A DNA stretch of 36,270 bases from Clostridia bacterium (GTDB lineage Bacteria > Bacillota > Peptococcia > DRI-13 > SV3-B141): NCBI GenBank assembly GCA_018433015.1, contig JAHDSB010000151.1, forward strand, positions 1-36,270. Reading direction: 5' to 3'. The translations under genes were made by a program, and so were the position numbers. A model generated the notes under the pieces. The model was not told the DNA's origin and made no database searches. It saw only the letters and a list, made by a program, of their open reading frames with translations. Position 1 is the first letter of the stretch; every line of letters begins with the position of its first letter. Below are positions 13,977 through 23,716 of this stretch, piece after piece.

Positions 13977-14822
13977 TTAATAGGTAAAGGCAAATCCTAA
14001 AGCCCCGGGTCCCGTATGAACCCCAATAGCAGGGCCCGTTTCGCTGAAAAGGGATATATCAATACCGAAGGTTTCTTTTACTAAATCTTTTAATGTAAGA
14101 CCAGCTTCTTCAGAAGCACCATGGGCCACAGCCATATGATGTGGCAACTTACCATCCAGTATTTTGACAGCATGATTTAACATTTTTTGAATGGCCTGTT
14201 TTTGATTTCTTACTTTATCTATGGGTACATAAATACCGTTTTCGACTCTAATCACAGGTTTAATTCTCAGAACAGAGCCTAAAAGGGCCGAAACTTTACC
14301 GATACGTCCCCCTCTTTCTAGATATTCTAGGGTATCTAAAGAAAAAAGAACTTCCGTTCTTTCTCTGATCTCATTGAGACGTTTGGAAATGTTTTCTAAT
14401 GAAAGGTTTTGATTTACCATTTCTACAGCTTCTTGGACTTGTAGTCCTATTCCCAAGCTGATACTCTTGGAGTCGAAGACATGTATTTGACCTTTTAATT
14501 TTTGGGCAGCAGCTTCGGCGATAGATGAAGTGCTGCTTAAACCGGAAGAAATATGGATGGAAAGGATATCATATCCTTTTTTTAATAAAGATGTATAGAT
14601 ATTAGTAAAATCTCCAATAGAAGGAGTGGAAGTTTTAGGAAGAATATCTTTACAGCGTTGTAACATTGGGTAAAATTCTTTAGGCTGAATGGTAACACCG
14701 TCTAAAAAAGAGGCATTAGGAAAATTAATATGAAGAGGTACAACTTCTATGTCATACTTTTCTATAAAATCACGTGGTAAGTCAGCAGTACTATCTGTTA
14801 CTATTTTAATTTTTCGAGACAT
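13977..14822 (-). CDS. DegV family fatty-acid-binding protein
   Basis: 281 residues with the DegV signature: N-terminal VTDSTADLPRDF, ISSGLSSTSS in the middle that binds the fatty acid carboxylate, LEYLERGGRIGK, and a C-terminal ETGPAIGVHTGPGALGFAF. In Gram-positive bacteria DegV/FakB proteins hand an acyl chain to the kinase FakA for phosphorylation and entry into phospholipid synthesis. No fakA is in the window. AAAGG lies upstream of the ATG. It is a single gene converging on the NSS operon with a shared terminator. Confidence 0.9.
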   Translation of the reverse strand: MSRKIKIVTDSTADLPRDFIEKYDIEVVPLHINFPNASFLDGVTIQPKEFYPMLQRCKDILPKTSTPSIGDFTNIYTSLLKKGYDILSIHISSGLSSTSSIAEAAAQKLKGQIHVFDSKSISLGIGLQVQEAVEMVNQNLSLENISKRLNEIRERTEVLFSLDTLEYLERGGRIGKVSALLGSVLRIKPVIRVENGIYVPIDKVRNQKQAIQKMLNHAVKILDGKLPHHMAVAHGASEEAGLTLKDLVKETFGIDISLFSETGPAIGVHTGPGALGFAFTY

Positions 14823-14979: not shown

Positions 14980-15007
14980 TTGACAACATACCTTTTTGTA
15001 GTATAAA
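14980..15007 (+). promoter_or_regulatory. promoter of the pyr operon
   Basis: A consensus TTGACA is followed after 16 bases by TATAAA. It lies about 350 bases before pyrB, leaving room for the two attenuators described next. Confidence 0.75.
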
Positions 15008-15039
15008 ATTAGTTGAAGAAAAACAAATAGAGAATCCCA

Positions 15040-15155
15040 ACCTTTAATGTGGTACAGAGAGACCAATAAGGTGAGTAGGATGTAAGTTTAAGAGAAGTGT
15101 AAAGTGTAGTGAGATTATTACCTACTTGCTAAGGTGTCTTAGTAAGTAGGTTTTA
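15040..15155 (+). promoter_or_regulatory. PyrR-type attenuator 1 in the pyr leader
   Basis: The PyrR-binding hairpin has ACCTT (15040-15044) pairing with AAGGT (15068-15072) and GGT (15051-15053) with ACC (15062-15064), closing over an ACAGAGAG loop that resembles the PyrR box. GGTGAGTAGG (15070-15079) can instead pair with CCTACTTGCT (15121-15130) as antiterminator. The terminator is ACCTACTTGCTAAG with CTTAGTAAGTAGGT around GTGT, followed by TTTTATTAT. The three structures exclude one another. With uridine nucleotides, PyrR would favour termination (family knowledge). Confidence 0.7.
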
Positions 15156-15175
15156 TTATATTACAAATAAATATT

Positions 15176-15285
15176 CCCTTGAAATTAGTCCCGAGAGGCT
15201 AGTAAGGGTTAGATTTTGCTGACTATCTATAAGGATAATTGTAAAGCAAAGATAAACCTCCTAGCCCTGGGCAGGGGGTTTTTTT
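15176..15285 (+). promoter_or_regulatory. PyrR-type attenuator 2 in the pyr leader
   Basis: The binding hairpin has CCCTT (15176) pairing with AAGGG (15204-15208) and TAG with CTA, enclosing TCCCGAGAGG; AGTCCCGAGAGGCT matches the PyrR consensus closely. The antiterminator is AGGGTTAG (15205-15212) with CTAGCCCT (15261-15268), extended by TTTGCT (15215-15220) with AGCAAA (15245-15250). The terminator is AACCTCCT with AGGGGGTT followed by a run of T to 15285. Its left arm overlaps the antiterminator partner. Confidence 0.85.
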
Positions 15286-15354
15286 AACGAGAAAAGTAAG
15301 ATTATTTTAAGGTTTTTATGGCTTTGGGTAATAATAATTTTGAGGAGGGAGAAC

Positions 15355-16284
15355 ATGGGAATTAAAGAGAAAGATCTTATAACAATGGGTCAGCTCTCTA
15401 AGGAACAAATTGAAGAGATATTGAGTACTGCCAAAGAAATGAAGAATATTATAAAACGTGATATAAAAAAGATACCTACTTTACGGGGAAAAGTTGTAGT
15501 TAATTTATTTTATGAACCCAGTACTCGTACCAGAACTTCCTTTGAATTGGCCGGAAAATATATGAGTGCCGATGTTATTAATATCAGTACTTCTGCTAGC
15601 AGTGTTGTAAAAGGTGAAAGCCTGAGGGATACAGGATATACTCTGCAGAGCATGGGTGCTGATATTGTTGTAATCCGGCATAGTATGGCAGGGGCTCCAC
15701 AATTACTTGGTAATTATCTGAATGCACGGGTTATAAATGCGGGAGATGGTTTCCATGAACATCCCACTCAAGCCCTGTTGGACATGCTAACTATTAAAGA
15801 GCAATTGGGCAGTTTTGCAGGTTTGAAAGTTGCTATCATAGGTGATATTTTACACAGTCGTGTAGCCAGGTCAAACTTAAGCGGCCTTACAAAAATGGGA
15901 GCCGATGTATGGCTGTGTGGACCACCTACTTTAGTACCTCCCGGCATAGAAACATTAGGTGGTAAAGTAACTTATAACATGGATGAAGCCCTGCAGGATG
16001 CCGATGTAGTCATGATGTTACGGATTCAGTTAGAACGACAAAAAGCCGGACTTTTTCCTTCCCTTAAAGAATATAGCCAGCTTTATGGGCTAACCCAGGA
16101 AAAAATAAAACTAGCGAGCAAAAACAGTCTGATTTTGCATCCGGGACCTATGAATAGAGGAATTGAAATAGCAGGAAATACGGCCGATAGTTCTCAATCC
16201 CATATTCGGGAACAGGTTACTAATGGAGTGGCTATCCGTATGGCCTTATTGTACTTAATGCTGGGACAACAGAAGGGGGAATAA
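15355..16284 (+). CDS. pyrB: aspartate carbamoyltransferase catalytic subunit
   Basis: 309 residues. It makes N-carbamoyl-L-aspartate from carbamoyl phosphate and aspartate, the second step of pyrimidine synthesis. The carbamoyl-phosphate motif FYEPSTRTRTSFE lies near residue 50, followed by HPTQALLD near 140 and the HPGPMNRG aspartate-loop motif near 265. I chose the ATG at 15355 because GAGGAGGGA precedes it; a TTG at 15342 and before is not needed. No pyrI regulatory subunit follows, so it is the unregulated Bacillus-like trimer type. First gene of the operon; pyrC begins 2 bases after it. Confidence 0.95.
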   Translation: MGIKEKDLITMGQLSKEQIEEILSTAKEMKNIIKRDIKKIPTLRGKVVVNLFYEPSTRTRTSFELAGKYMSADVINISTSASSVVKGESLRDTGYTLQSMGADIVVIRHSMAGAPQLLGNYLNARVINAGDGFHEHPTQALLDMLTIKEQLGSFAGLKVAIIGDILHSRVARSNLSGLTKMGADVWLCGPPTLVPPGIETLGGKVTYNMDEALQDADVVMMLRIQLERQKAGLFPSLKEYSQLYGLTQEKIKLASKNSLILHPGPMNRGIEIAGNTADSSQSHIREQVTNGVAIRMALLYLMLGQQKGE

Positions 16285-16286
16285 AG

Positions 16287-17585
16287 ATGGAATATATTTT
16301 ACAAAATGGTTTAGTAATGGACCCTAAATCTAATTTAGAAAAAAAGCTTGATATTCATATACAAAAAGGAAAGATAAAGAATATGGCTCCACATCTGGAG
16401 GAACCGGGAGTTGAAGTTATTGATCTAGAGAATAAGATTGTAGCTCCTGGATTTATCGATATGCATGTACATCTTAGAGAACCGGGTGGAGAAGCTAATG
16501 AAACTATCCTTACAGGTTGCCGTGCCGCAGCAGCCGGTGGTTTTACTGCTGTAGCAGCTATGCCTAATACAAATCCTTGTGCCGATCAAGAAGGAGTTGT
16601 GGAATTAGTGAAGGCCCGGGCCCAACGTGCAGGGTTGTCCAGGGTTTGGCCTATTGGGGCTATCAGCAAAGGTCAAAAGGGAGAAGAAATAGCAGAAACC
16701 GGCACCCTATATAAGGCGGGAATCGTAGCTATCTCTGATGACGGCAATCCCGTAACTAATAGTGAAGTTATGCGGAGAGCTTTAGAATACAGTAAAATCT
16801 TTGACATACCCGTTATTTCCCACAGTGAGGACCTAAAGCTTTCAGCAGGAGGTTTGATGCATGAAGGGTATTGGTCAACAGTACTGGGCCTTAAAGGTAT
16901 TCCCCCGGAAGCTGAGGAGATAATGGAAGCCCGTGATATCCTTCTGGCCAAATTAACGGGAGGAAGGTTACATTTAGCCCATGTCAGTACGGCAGGCAGT
17001 GTAGAACTCCTTAAATTTGCTAAGGCTCAAGGTATAAAAGTTACTGCTGAAGCTACCCCCCATCATTTGTTGCTAACAGATGAAGAGGTACAGGGCTATA
17101 ATACTAGCACTAAAGTTAATCCTCCTTTGCGCAGCATCGAACATGTAAAGGCTTTGCGCAAGGCTGTAAAAGAAGGATTGATCCAGTGCCTCGTTACAGA
17201 TCATGCTCCTTGGGCGGAAGAATTAAAAGATCAAGAATTTGCTAAAGCTCCCAATGGCATTTCCGGACTAGAGACTGCAGTCCCCATTTGTTGGGATACA
17301 TTAGTAGTAAAAGAAAACCTTAGTCCCATGGATTTGATTGCTAAATTTACCGTAGGACCGGCAGAAATTTTACAACAACCTAAAGGTATGTTAGCAGTTG
17401 GTGAAGAGGCTGATATAACAGTAATCGATCCCCATTTACGCAAACAAGTAAAAGCAGCAAACTTTTATTCTAAAGGTAAAAACAGTCCCGTTGATGGGAG
17501 AACATTTCAAGGATGGCCTGTCCTGACTATTGTGGCGGGTAAAATTATTATGAAAGACGGAGAAGTAAAGGAGGGCAACCAATGA
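16287..17585 (+). CDS. pyrC: dihydroorotase
   Basis: 432 residues of class I dihydroorotase. It closes carbamoyl-aspartate to dihydroorotate. Zinc-binding signatures are present: DMHVHLREPGGE near residue 60, HSED near 175, LAHVSTAGS near 230 and the catalytic DHAPW near 303. It starts 2 bases after pyrB with AGGGGGA as ribosome site, and its TGA overlaps the carA start codon (ATGA), so translation is coupled both ways. Confidence 0.95.
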   Translation: MEYILQNGLVMDPKSNLEKKLDIHIQKGKIKNMAPHLEEPGVEVIDLENKIVAPGFIDMHVHLREPGGEANETILTGCRAAAAGGFTAVAAMPNTNPCADQEGVVELVKARAQRAGLSRVWPIGAISKGQKGEEIAETGTLYKAGIVAISDDGNPVTNSEVMRRALEYSKIFDIPVISHSEDLKLSAGGLMHEGYWSTVLGLKGIPPEAEEIMEARDILLAKLTGGRLHLAHVSTAGSVELLKFAKAQGIKVTAEATPHHLLLTDEEVQGYNTSTKVNPPLRSIEHVKALRKAVKEGLIQCLVTDHAPWAEELKDQEFAKAPNGISGLETAVPICWDTLVVKENLSPMDLIAKFTVGPAEILQQPKGMLAVGEEADITVIDPHLRKQVKAANFYSKGKNSPVDGRTFQGWPVLTIVAGKIIMKDGEVKEGNQ

Positions 17586-18700
17586 AAGCATATTTATGTC
17601 TAGCAGATGGTACTATTTTTGAGGGAGAATCCATTGGTTTAGCGGGTGAAACAGCAGGTGAAGTTGTATTTAACACTTCTATGACAGGTTATCAGGAGAT
17701 ACTTACTGACCCCTCCTATGCCGGGCAATTAATAACCCTCACGTATCCTTTAATCGGTAACTATGGTGTTAATAAAGAGGATGCCCAGTCTAAGGGAATA
17801 GCTGCTAAAGGGTTAATAATAAAAGAATTTTGCAACGAACCTAGCAATTATAGATCAGAGAAGAATCTACAGCGTTATTTAGTAGAAGAAAAGGTTGTAG
17901 GTATAAAAGATGTTGATACACGAGCCCTAACTCGCCATATACGCACTAAGGGAACAATGATGGGATTAATTAGCACGGAAACGGACTATGATAAATTAAG
18001 AAAGAAAGCAGCTACATTAGAATTTGATAAGAGCCTTCAATTAGTAAAGAGTGTTACCGCTGCTAAAACATATCCTGTATCTAAAGGTAAATATCCTATT
18101 GTTATGATTGACTATGGCACGAAAAAGAATATTATCGATTCTTTAGTAGCCCTTGATTGCCAAGTTACGGTAGTACCTGCAGAGGCTTCAGCAGAAGAGA
18201 TTCTTGCCCTGAATCCCTGGGGAGTGTTATTAAGTAATGGACCGGGAGATCCGCGGGATCTGGAGTGTGTTTTACCGACAATTAAAAAACTGGTAGAAAC
18301 AAAAATACCCATGATGGGGATATGTTTAGGTCATCAATTGTTAGGATTAGCTTTAGGTGCCGATATCTTCAAAATGAAATTTGGACATAGAGGCGGTAAC
18401 CATCCCGTAAAGGATTTGACTACTAATCGTATCCATATAACTTCGCAAAACCATGGGTATGCCATTGATCCCCAAAGTTTAGAAGGCAAGGATGCTGAAA
18501 TAACCCATATTAATTTACATGATCATACCATTGAAGGAATACGTCATAAAGAGAAGAAAATCTTTTCTGTTCAGTTTCACCCCGAAGCTTTTCCGGGACC
18601 TCAGGATGTTTCCTTCTCTTTTGATATCTTCTTAAATGATGTAAAAGAATACGGCAGGACCCACGGTTCGGAGGAGAAAAGGAGTGAAGTAAATGCCTAA
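17582..18700 (+). CDS. carA: carbamoyl-phosphate synthase small (glutaminase) subunit
   Basis: 372 residues. It releases ammonia from glutamine and passes it to CarB. The N-terminal half carries the CPSase small-chain signature ([17 protein letters not shown]). The C-terminal half is a class I glutamine amidotransferase with nucleophile Cys in [10 protein letters not shown] (about 249) and the His/Glu pair in [10 protein letters not shown] (about 333-335). The length is normal. Its start overlaps the pyrC stop, and its end overlaps carB by 8 bases. Placement in this PyrR-controlled operon marks it as the pyrimidine form (pyrAA of Bacillus). Confidence 0.95.
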
Positions 18701-21700
18701 AATTACTGGTTTAGATAAAGTTTTAGTGATTGGCTCAGGTCCCATCATCATCGGGCAGGCAGCGGAGTTTGATTATGCAGGTACCCAAGCTTGTCGTACT
18801 TTAAAAGAAGAAGGAATAGAAGTAATCCTAGTAAATTCCAACCCTGCTACAATTATGACTGATAAAGATATGGCTTCTCGTGTATATTTAGAACCCTTAA
18901 CTCCGGAAACAGTAGAAAAAATTATAAAAAAAGAAAAACCCCAGGGCCTTTTGGCTACTTTGGGAGGTCAGGTTGGACTTAATCTGGCCATGACTTTAGC
19001 AAAAAGCGGTGTCCTGGAAAGAGAAGGTGTAAAATTATTAGGCACTCCTTTAAGAGCCATAGAAAAAGCGGAAGACAGAGAAGTATTCAAAGCTACTATG
19101 GCAGAGATAGGGGAGCCGGTACCGGAAAGCACCATAGTTAGCAGCGTAGAAGATGCCCTAGCTTTTGCCAGAAGTATTAGTTATCCAGTAATTGTACGCC
19201 CTGGCTATACTTTAGGGGGTACAGGGGGCGGAGTTGCAAATAATGATGAAGAACTAATTGAAATTGCCTCTAAAGGTCTCAAATACAGCTTGAATTCCCA
19301 GCTATTAATTGAACGCAGTGTAGCAGGCTGGAAGGAAATTGAATTTGAAGTAATGCGGGATGCCAACGATAATTGCATCACTATCTGTTCTATGGAAAAT
19401 ATAGACCCGGTGGGTATTCATACCGGAGATAGCATAGTTGTGGCCCCTACTCAAACATTATCTGATAGAGATTATCAGATGCTGAGAAGTGGTGCTTTGA
19501 AGATGATAAGGGCTTTGGGAATTGAAGGTGGTTGTAATGTTCAATTTGCCTTAGATCCTCAAAGCAGTCAATATTATGTGATTGAAGTTAATCCGCGGGT
19601 AAGTCGTTCTAGCGCTCTAGCCTCTAAGGCTACGGGATATCCTATTGCCAAGGTAGCGGCCAAAGTAGCTTTAGGGTATACCTTGGATGAAATCGTTAAC
19701 AGTGTCACAGGTACAACATCAGCCTGTTTTGAACCAACCATAGATTATGTTGTAGTGAAAATTCCCCGGTGGCCCTTTGATAAATTTTCTTCGGCGGGAC
19801 GTACATTAGGTTCGCAAATGAAAGCCACGGGGGAAGTTATGGCTTTAGGAAGGAATTTTTCAGCTGCTCTCTTAAAAGCCATCCGTTCTTTGGAAATGAA
19901 CTTTAGTGGACTCTTGGGTACAGAAATGAAAAATTATGACTGGACAGAACTTTTGGAAAAGCTGCAGAGGGCTGACGACGAAAGGCTTTTTGCAGTGACA
20001 GAAAGTCTGAGACGTGGTATATCCATTGAGCAACTCCATCAAATTACAGGGATAGATATGTTTTTCCTGGATAACTTGCAGCAGATTGTAGAATTGGAGA
20101 TTTCCTTGTCCCAAAAGAAAAACTGGACCAGAGAAGATTGGCTCCTGGCTAAAAAGTTTGGTTTTAGTGACCATCAGCTGGCATTTTTCTTGGGCACTAC
20201 AGATAAAGAAGTGTGGCAGAAGAGAAAAGAGCTGGGAATAGAAGCCGGGTATCGAATGGTTGATACTTGTGCCGGAGAATTCGAAGCCACCACTCCTTAT
20301 TACTACTCCAGTTATGGGGAAGATGATGAGTTTGTTTTATCACAGAAGCCCAAGGTTCTGGTATTAGGTTCAGGACCCATCAGAATTGGGCAAGGTGTGG
20401 AGTTTGATTATTGTTCTGTTCACTCTTCCTGGGCTATTAAAGAAAGTGGCAGAGAATCTATCGTAATAAATAATAACCCGGAAACAGTTAGTACTGATCC
20501 TGATACTTCAGACCGCTTGTATTTTGAACCCTTAACCGTAGAAAATGTCTTAAATGTTATTGAAGCAGAAAAACCTCAGGGTGTTGTGGTTCAATTCGGC
20601 GGACAGACTGCTATAAACTTGGCAAAACCCTTAGAGTCTTATGGAGTTAAAATCTTAGGTACAACGGTAGACGATATTGATAGAGCAGAAGACAGAGAAC
20701 GTTTTGATGCTCTGCTGGAAGAGCTGGATATTCCTCGTCCCCAGGGAAGCGTAGCCTATACCCATAATGCTGCCAAATCTATTGCTAAAAAATTAGGCTT
20801 TCCCGTACTTGTGCGACCTTCTTATGTACTGGGAGGAAGGGCTATGGAGATAGTCCATAACGAAGGGGAACTGGTCAACTACCTGGCAGAAGCTGTACGG
20901 CTTTCTCCTGAACATCCTGTTTTAGTAGACCGTTATATTATGGGAAAAGAAGTTGAAGTTGATGGGATCTGTGATGGGGAGAAGGTCTTAATACCTGGAA
21001 TCATGGAGCATTTAGAAAGGGCTGGTGTCCATTCTGGTGATAGTACAGCCATCTATCCTCCTCAAACATTAAGCCAGGAGTTAATTGATACAATTATAGA
21101 CTATACACAACGCATAGCATTAAGCTTGAACATCAAAGGTCTTGTTAACATACAGTTTGTAATTCAAGATAATGAAGTATATGTTTTGGAAGTTAATCCT
21201 CGGGCTAGTCGTACAGTGCCATTTTTAAGTAAGGTTACAAATATACCTATGGTTAAGTTAGCTACCAGAATTATGCTGGGTGAAACCTTAGCAGATATGG
21301 GTTATCAGGGAGGACTATGGCAAGCTCCTAATTTAACAGCCATTAAAATGCCTGTTTTCTCCTTTAATAAATTAACTAATGTAGAACCATCCCTAGGACC
21401 GGAAATGAAATCCACAGGGGAAGTTATGGGCTTAGCTGATAATTTCGCGGAAGCTCTCCATAAAGCTTTCTTAGCGGCAGGTTATACAATCTCTCAGAAG
21501 GGAGAACTTCTGGCTACCGTAGGAGACAAAGATAAGGAAGAAGCCCTTCCTATCATCAAAGAATTTGCCGCTTTAGGTTACACCATCTGGGCAACTCAAG
21601 GAACGGCTGAATTCTTAAAGAATCAGCAAGTTGCTGTTAAAGAAATAGCTAAGATTCATCAAGGAAAGCCTAACGTATTGGATTTAATTCACAGTGGAAA

Positions 21701-21887
21701 ATTAGCTTTTGTAATGAACAGCTTGACTAAGGGAAAACAACCGGAGCGTCATGGTTTTCAAATACGTAGAGCTGCTGTAGAATTTAATATCCCTTGCTTA
21801 ACATCACTGGATACCTGTAAGGGTCTATTGAGTGTAGTACAGCAGGATGAGAAGGACTTACCTGTTAAAGCGTTACAAGAGTATTAA
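18693..21887 (+). CDS. carB: carbamoyl-phosphate synthase large subunit
   Basis: 1064 residues, close to the usual length. Two homologous halves each contain an ATP-grasp domain: the first starts [21 protein letters not shown], the second [19 protein letters not shown] near residue 555. Each half has a VNPR metal-binding motif ([20 protein letters not shown]). A C-terminal MGS-like domain (about 935-1060) binds allosteric effectors. It makes carbamoyl phosphate from bicarbonate, ammonia and two ATP. The preceding gene supplies the ammonia. A 55-base gap separates it from pyrF. Confidence 0.95.
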
Positions 21888-21942
21888 GAAAAATAGGCGC
21901 CAAAAGTAAAGATAAGTTGATTCATACGGGGGACTGAATGAT

Positions 21943-22650
21943 ATGATTAATGGGCAAGAAAAAGTGATTATAGCGTTAGATTATCCAAATTGGAAAGAAG
22001 CCGAAAAGCTTGTATTACAAATACCTGAAGTAAAGTATTATAAGGTGGGTTTGGAGCTATACTTGGCCAGTAGAGGAGAAGCGGTACAAAATTTAAAGAA
22101 GTTAGGTAAGAAGGTTTTTCTAGATCTGAAGTTTCATGATATACCTAACACGGTTGCCCAAGCTTGTTGCCAAGCTGTAGATCAAGGAGCTGATATTCTT
22201 AATGTCCATGCTTTAGGGGGAAAAGAAATGATGGCTAAAAGTGCTAGTGCTGTACAGGAACAGGCCTTAAAGCAAAAGAGGGAAAAGCCTCTCCTGATAG
22301 CGGTAACACTATTAACCAGTATGAATGAGGATGATTTGCAAGGTGTAGGCTTGAGCGGAGTAGAACAGTCGGTAGGAAGGTTAGCTCATTTGACCAAGGA
22401 AGCAGGTTTAGACGGAGTAGTAGCTTCTCCCCGAGAAATAAAATTAATCAGAGAAAAATGTGGTAAAGATTTTAAGATTATCTGCCCCGGTGTTCGTCCA
22501 ACCTGGGCTGCTAAAGGTGACCAAAAACGAGTGTTAACACCGAAGGAAGCCTTAGCTTTAGGAGCAGATTTCTTAGTGATCGGGAGGCCCATTACTAAAG
22601 CAGACAACCCCCGAGAAGCCGCCCAAAGAATCCTCGAAGAGGTACAGTGA
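21943..22650 (+). CDS. pyrF: orotidine 5'-phosphate decarboxylase
   Basis: 235 residues, a TIM-barrel of the bacterial OMP decarboxylase type I. It carries the catalytic motif LDLKFHDIPNTV (about 60-72) and the phosphate-binding end GADFLVIGRPITKA (about 205-218). It makes UMP from OMP. GGGGGA precedes the ATG. The last two sense codons and the stop (GTA CAG TGA) lie inside the first unit of the repeat array, so the repeat has replaced or formed the original end of the gene. pyrD and pyrK, which usually sit between carB and pyrF, are missing. Confidence 0.95.
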   Translation: MINGQEKVIIALDYPNWKEAEKLVLQIPEVKYYKVGLELYLASRGEAVQNLKKLGKKVFLDLKFHDIPNTVAQACCQAVDQGADILNVHALGGKEMMAKSASAVQEQALKQKREKPLLIAVTLLTSMNEDDLQGVGLSGVEQSVGRLAHLTKEAGLDGVVASPREIKLIREKCGKDFKIICPGVRPTWAAKGDQKRVLTPKEALALGADFLVIGRPITKADNPREAAQRILEEVQ

Positions 22651-23113
22651 AACTTACGTCAGGGGTATTTTACCTGATAGTTAGTTGAACCAATCAGGGT
22701 AATACTGTCCGTCATCTGAAATTATGTAAGCAATAAAAGTACGGACAGTAATAGCGTGGTACAGTGAAACTTCCGTCAGGGGTGTCTTTTCCCCTGATGG
22801 TTAGTTGAACCAATCAGGGTGATACTGTCCGTTATCTGAAATTATGCAAGCAATAAAAGTACGGACAGTAATAGCGTGGTACAGTGAAACTTCAATCAGG
22901 GGTATTTTACCTGATAGTTAGTTGAACCAATCAGGGTAATACTGTCCGTCATCTGAAATTATGTAAGCAATAAAAGTACGGACAGTAATAGCGTGGTACA
23001 GTAAAACTTCCATCAGGGGTGTTTTTCCCCTGATGGTTAGTTGAACCAATCAGGGTAATACTGTCCGTTATCTGAAATTATGCAAGCGATAAAAGTACGG
23101 ACAGTAATAGCGT
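22641..23113 (+). repeat. two-hairpin interspersed repeat, array of four units inside the pyr operon
   Basis: Four head-to-tail units start at 22641, 22758, 22878 and 22995 (117, 120, 117 and 119 bp). Each has GGTACAGTGAAACTT, a small hairpin around TCAGG/CCTGA, the linker TTAGTTGAACCAATCAGGG, then a 10 bp stem TACTGTCCGT/ACGGACAGTA around 28 bases, ending ATAGCGT. Units 1 and 3 match each other and units 2 and 4 match each other, so a two-unit block was duplicated. The array fills the gap between pyrF and pyrE with no T tract after either stem, so it is not a set of terminators. Confidence 0.9.
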
Positions 23114-23137
23114 GGAAAAGTGAAAAGGAGGCCGAAA

Positions 23138-23716
23138 ATGGAACGTGAAGATATTTTAAATATATTTAAGGATAATAAGGCAATGTTAGAAGGTCATTTT
23201 CTTTTAACGTCTGGAAGGCACAGCAATCAATATTTGCAATGTGCTTTAGTTTTACAGAAACCTTCCGTAGCTGAAAAACTCTCTCAAGAGCTCTGCAAAA
23301 AAATTGAGGAGCAAAACGTCGATATTGTTATCGGACCGGCAATAGGAGGCATTACCTTTGCTTATGAGATGGCTCGCCAGTTAGGAGCACTAGCATTATT
23401 TGCTGAAAGGGAAGAGGGAGCAATGACCTTGCGCCGCGGTTTTACCATAGCTCCGGGAGCCAGGGTTTTAGTAGTAGAGGATGTTATAACTACAGGTGGT
23501 TCTGTACGGGAAGTTGTGGAGTTAGTTAAGAAACTGGGGGGACAGGTTGTAGGTGTTGCCTCCTTAGTAGATCGAAGCAATGGAAAAGTTGAATTCGGCT
23601 GCCCTTTTACTAGTCTACTTCCTATAGAAGTAGTGTCATATTCTCCTGAGGATTGTCCTTTATGTAAAGAAGGAAAACCCATAGTTAAACCAGGTTCCAG
23701 AAAGGTAAAGAAGTAA
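23138..23716 (+). CDS. pyrE: orotate phosphoribosyltransferase
   Basis: 192 residues. It joins orotate to PRPP to give OMP. The PRPP-binding motif [14 protein letters not shown] lies near residue 110, with substrate contacts in [12 protein letters not shown] and [13 protein letters not shown]. The C-terminal stretch with CPLC resembles archaeal and clostridial PyrE forms. AGGAGG lies 7 bases before the ATG at 23138; an in-frame GTG at 23120 comes before that site and is unlikely. The last gene of the operon, separated from pyrF by the repeat array and followed at once by half a repeat unit and a terminator. Confidence 0.95.

Follow-up and report, generated by a model that had tools for sequence, protein, structure and literature searches.

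Two predicted PyrR-dependent transcription attenuators in series within the pyrB leader of a Clostridia bacterium

The leader considered here lies in the 3.75-Mb genome of a Clostridia bacterium, in the window, by which we mean the whole 36,270-nucleotide stretch that was analysed and which corresponds to one contig. It is flanked on one side by a divergent degV-type gene on the minus strand (13977-14822) and on the other by pyrB, which encodes aspartate carbamoyltransferase on the plus strand (15355-16284; NF002032, 408 bits). The likely start of pyrB is the ATG at 15355, placed after GAGGAGGG at 15342-15349, where the ORF list gives a TTG at 15340. The remainder of the operon (16287-23716) is read from the same strand and comprises pyrC (16287-17585), carA (17582-18700), carB (18693-21887, assigned by size and place and not by a profile), pyrF (21943-22650), and pyrE (23120-23716), with no candidate ORF for pyrK or pyrD between carB and pyrE (18693-23716). 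The gap between pyrF and pyrE (22641-23125) harbors a 117-bp repeat in 4.1 copies, 90% alike, and for one unit only 1 of 200 shuffles folds at least as well. Upstream of the leader, a candidate sigma-70 promoter is found at 14980-15009 on the plus strand (TTGACA, 18 nt, TAAAAT); it matches 11 of 12 consensus positions, and since the scan also returns about two weaker matches by chance in shuffled sequences, it is retained as a candidate only. No second promoter was found by this consensus scan between the two elements described below.

A genome-wide search with RF00515 identifies two matches in this leader, both on the plus strand: element 1 (15037-15156; 39.7 bits, under the cut-off of 54; E = 8.3e-4) and element 2 (15173-15287; 59.3 bits, above the cut-off; E = 1.8e-7). 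The first-pass annotation, made from the letters alone, had proposed that two PyrR-type attenuators stand one behind the other upstream of pyrB, each composed of a binding hairpin, a competing antiterminator, and a terminator with a T tract, and this division is recovered for both elements by the folds and the terminator scan. In element 1, the predicted PyrR binding hairpin (15040-15072; -7.8 kcal/mol in isolation) is supported by the RF00515 match, the fold, and covariation in six sequences, the antiterminator (15070-15130; -13.0 kcal/mol) folds through 10 pairs between arms 15070-15079 and 15121-15130, and the intrinsic terminator (15120-15156; -19.9 kcal/mol) consists of a 14-pair stem at 15120-15151 followed by a U-rich tail. 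In element 2, the predicted binding hairpin (15176-15208; -11.1 kcal/mol in isolation) combines a consensus box with the RF00515 match and the fold, the antiterminator (15205-15268; -17.3 kcal/mol) folds with outer arms at 15205-15212 and 15261-15268, and the intrinsic terminator (15254-15287; -15.9 kcal/mol), found by both scan and folding, has its stem at 15254-15281 and ends in a U tract. In both elements, some bases of the antiterminator also belong to the binding hairpin (3' arm) or to the terminator (5' arm), and because of these shared bases the hairpin/terminator state and the antiterminator state are mutually exclusive. These two U-tailed terminators, recovered by folding as well, are exactly those returned by the terminator scan, when 0.2 would be expected in shuffles, and none of 100 shuffles folds as well as the 301-nt leader itself (z -5.3). 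When the leader is folded as a whole, its minimum-energy structure contains other, long-range pairs outside the attenuator model, as does, for some pairs, that of the whole of element 2; folding during transcription would be expected to favor the local hairpin, antiterminator, and terminator structures.

Element 1 has orthologues in 6 of 25 genomes of the order (G000, which is the present genome, G001, G003, G004, G008, and G010). Across the six, the pairing of its hairpin and terminator is kept in 93.8% of alignment cells, against at most 54.9% in slid controls, and 7 of the 24 pairs have changed on both sides, including 3 of the 14 terminator pairs. The pairing of its antiterminator is likewise kept in 86.7% of cells (at most 48.3% when slid), with zero two-sided changes in the orthologue alignment and thus without support from covariation. 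The box of element 2 is almost unchanged across 11 genomes of the order. As an attenuator of the element-1 type is the sole one in G003, immediately 5' of pyrB, and as other families of the order have the element-2 type only, each type can apparently serve alone.

The regulator on whose presence the proposal depended is encoded in this genome: a profile search finds one pyrR (G000:C135:104601-105134, 262 bits), so that both elements have a pyrimidine gene downstream of them and a PyrR gene in the same genome. All 15 genomes searched, the present one among them, yielded a single pyrR. Here, the genes lspA and rluD precede pyrR, which begins before rluD ends and therefore has no leader of its own. 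Further PyrR elements precede uraA (48.3 bits) and codB-codA in the same genome. The latter attenuator (locus L002, G000:C148:70693-70824, minus strand, 58.8 bits) lies before the cytosine permease and deaminase genes, which would make cytosine salvage a PyrR target.

Our reading is that this one leader RNA very probably contains two PyrR-dependent transcription attenuators in series. In a single unit of Bacillus subtilis, UMP-PyrR stabilizes the anti-antiterminator, according to the accessible part of PMC7430163. By extension to both boxes, when uridine nucleotides are plentiful, UMP-PyrR would hold each binding hairpin and thereby block the antiterminator in the same element, so that the polymerase would stop near 15155 or 15285; at low UMP, the two antiterminators would form and pyrB-pyrC-carA-carB-pyrF-pyrE would be transcribed. 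Because only those polymerases that pass both gates would reach pyrB, readthrough probabilities are expected to multiply, which would strengthen repression by UMP-PyrR and make the response either sharper or wider depending on the relative affinities of the two gates. In a toy product model with arbitrary basal (0.1) and maximal (0.95) termination, the control range goes from 18-fold with one gate to 324-fold with two, and the maximal log slope from 0.62 to 1.24 when the two gates have equal affinity, falling to 1.01 at a 10-fold and 0.66 at a 100-fold difference in affinity. The suggestion of the first-pass annotation that serial control could sharpen the response thus holds in this model at equal affinity and fails at a 100-fold difference, where the response widens; since the slopes fall as affinities diverge, sharpening would be restricted to gates of similar affinity.

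The best-known counterpart is the pyr operon of B. subtilis, where, in the text of PMC7430163 available to us, three attenuation regions are described, before pyrR, pyrP, and pyrB. It shares with the present operon the RF00515 architecture (PyrR hairpin, competing antiterminator, terminator, pyrimidine genes downstream) and the presence of several attenuators on one operon. The regions of B. subtilis are however separated by genes, as the first-pass annotation had correctly pointed out and as the same partial text has it (PMC7430163), whereas here a single leader upstream of the first gene contains two. Also unlike B. subtilis, pyrR lies elsewhere in the genome and the box of element 1 is a variant. 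The tandem glycine riboswitch, whose two aptamers have a single expression platform in common, likewise puts two like sensors in one leader, whereas each PyrR unit has its own terminator. It further differs in that its tandem aptamers sense the metabolite directly, with cooperativity proposed (PMC3766115, as far as its accessible text goes). The tandem T-box of trp operons also places two copies of one regulatory RNA in a leader, yet its antiterminator senses tRNA and no protein is involved; such a tandem is reported for trpE of B. methanolicus in PMC4342826, the accessible part of which mentions PyrR sites beside other RNA elements and not two PyrR sites. Finally, the tandem attenuators of Salmonella mgtCBR are another case of serial attenuation in one leader but act via two short leader ORFs, without PyrR (PMC3641672, in the part available). 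In the open literature searched, which covers the main PyrR papers only in part, we found no leader described as having PyrR attenuators in tandem; single PyrR attenuators are well known, and the stacking of two in one leader may be new, with a prior mention possible.

From a comparative perspective, 30 of the 46 genomes of the class have RF00515 matches at E <= 0.02, and all 30 have an element before pyrB. The 57 matches distribute as 39 for pyrB, 10 for uraA, 5 for carA, and 1 for codB, with 2 considered spurious (G036:C129, 31.8 bits; G001:C1:3280466, 32.5 bits) that lack the box core, lie far from pyr genes, and are left out of the target counts, which rest on the other 55. Since 37 of the 39 matches scoring under the cut-off (39 of 57 in all) precede pyrimidine genes, this cut-off is not a defining limit of the family. 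Tandem leaders are found before pyrB in 9 of the 30 genomes (G000, G001, G004, G008, G010, G025, G031, G036, and G038), against 0 of 16 class leaders that precede other targets, and a further set occurs in genus g38 of family f20 (G053, G184, and G313). At the scale of the phylum, a strict two-box pattern is found in at least 2 of 398 genomes, a pattern that misses the known tandems of G000, G025, G031, and G053; an RF00515 survey of 299 genomes covers the best 150 matches only, from which no tandem frequency can be derived, and its stricter filters lose element 1 of the present genome. A search for related loci returned at least 80, mostly from other phyla, 10 of which were scanned for RNA families. 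Two PyrR switches stacked in one leader are uncommon. PyrR control would be stackable without intervening genes, an arrangement that seems to have arisen repeatedly and, among the leaders examined, only before pyrB, and related genomes, where this leader occurs naturally with one gate or with two, offer material in which the effect of serial attenuation on a nutrient response could be tested.

How such tandems arose can be approached through the sequence that follows the box. In the five tandems of the order, elements 1 and 2 are 0.50-0.60 identical after the box, close to the 0.52-0.54 of shuffled sequences, and the idea that element 2 arose as a recent copy of element 1 is rejected for this order; the corresponding identity is 0.74 in G031 and 0.92 in G038, both from another family, and a local duplication is plain in these two. 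Given shuffle-like tandems in the order, duplicated ones in G031 and G038, and a third set in g38, tandem PyrR leaders seem to have arisen more than once. For the present order, another origin has a chance just short of even, namely that the pair represents the first and second attenuators of an ancestral attenuator-pyrR-attenuator-pyrB arrangement, joined when pyrR left and not produced by tandem duplication. Boxes on both sides of pyrR are indeed seen in 19 of the 28 loci shown from other Bacillota, most of which were picked for that feature, while pyrR of the class, which has no PyrR element upstream, is found behind lspA and rluD (lspA-rluD-pyrR) at 13 of 14 loci, with a contig end truncating the remaining one. 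The low resemblance of the two elements after the box points the same way, although an old duplication diverged past recognition would give an identical picture. In addition, the lower stem is extended by a C..G pair in 11 of 22 elements that follow pyrR against 1 of 22 that precede it (p 0.0015) and, within the order, in 5 of 5 element 2s against 0 of 5 element 1s; this extension is nonetheless a single base pair, read from letters typed by hand in loci that are not independent, and the PyrB tree (in which the G025 row is partial, 48% filled) leaves the branching of the order unresolved. Locus L029 was excluded from alignment A1 because of a stop. The view of the tandem as a remnant of pyrR leaving the operon is therefore suggestive only.

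Whichever way the pair was formed, its two boxes differ. With the consensus ARUCCNGNGAGGYU, taken from the Rfam alignment and the accessible part of PMC7430163, the good match of box 2 reported by the first-pass annotation is upheld, and so is the A in place of C in box 1, but the latter description was incomplete, as the partner side also reads GA and not GG. Element 1 has UAC-AGAGAG-A where the consensus is UCC-NGNGAG-G, so that the upper stem is topped by A.G in place of the closing C-G, with U-A replacing the adjacent U.G. Of the class elements, 4 of 4 with an A at the first of these positions have an A at the second as well, which is the case for 11 of the remaining 50 (p 0.004, an approximate value as the genomes are related); these are the 54 of 57 matches with a readable core, the two spurious matches and that of G022, with a different 5' arm, being left out. 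In one of the four, from G025, a U replaces the G and an A-U pair is restored. The variant-box pattern is present in 4 of 299 phylum genomes, against 0 of 299 for a reversed control pattern, and the four sites are element 1 and the leaders of pyrR (G075), uraA (G179), and codB (G253, locus L189). As G032 and G035 of the class also carry it, as their only pyrB site, the variant occurs in five other genomes, upstream of pyrB, pyrR, uraA, or codB, and on sequence grounds it is a real though rare form of the PyrR box. Its recurrence would broaden the PyrR recognition consensus and help to explain why searches with a cut-off undercount PyrR sites.

In this regard, it is possible, though we tend to doubt it, that element 1 has another affinity for PyrR, in which case the pair would mainly widen the range of UMP concentrations and not sharpen the response. 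Box 1 departs from the consensus in the top pairs of its upper stem, a region important for PyrR binding in B. subtilis in the available text of PMC7430163, its isolated hairpin is the weaker of the two, and the toy model broadens at a 100-fold difference in affinity. Against this, the variant, as the only pyrB site of G032 and G035, may bind well, and element 1 of the tandem relatives G001, G004, G008, and G010 has the consensus box, which would make such a two-threshold trait peculiar to this genome. A broader synthesis is held more loosely still: serial PyrR attenuation would have evolved several times, always before pyrB, once via relocation of pyrR and once via local duplication, with a consensus box and a coupled U-A/A.G-topped box of different affinity forming here a two-threshold UMP gate.

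It is improbable, by comparison, that element 1 is a PyrR-independent terminator or a relic that has lost PyrR binding and left element 2 as sole regulator. Its score is under the RF00515 cut-off and, among the six orthologues, the C-G closing pair is absent only in this genome; however, such scores are usual in the class, the change at the top of the stem is a coupled one, and the variant box also stands before pyrR, uraA, and codB in distant genomes. More generally, element 1 is unlikely to be a degenerate copy, considering that its variant box recurs elsewhere and that five relatives keep the element with compensatory changes, one of them as its only pyrB attenuator. As for chance, the genome-wide E-values of the two RF00515 matches, together with the terminator scan, rule it out as the origin of the elements. 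Two serial attenuators that both respond to PyrR thus remain the preferred reading of the leader.

PyrR-like boxes are also seen in other positions. In the uraA leaders of G001 and G008, a PyrR attenuator has downstream of it another PyrR-like hairpin (L053:1107-1151 and L054:1114-1158), the 3' arm of which includes the uraA Shine-Dalgarno sequence, and attenuation may there possibly be combined with translational control by PyrR; the uraA leader of the present genome has no second PyrR-like box. Translational control by PyrR is known for mycobacteria. In five loci titled as Actinobacteria (L116, L125, L126, L133, and L144), the 3' arm of the box falls at a Shine-Dalgarno-like stretch near the start codon, and this position, a few bases 5' of the start codon, is as expected for translational control by PyrR.
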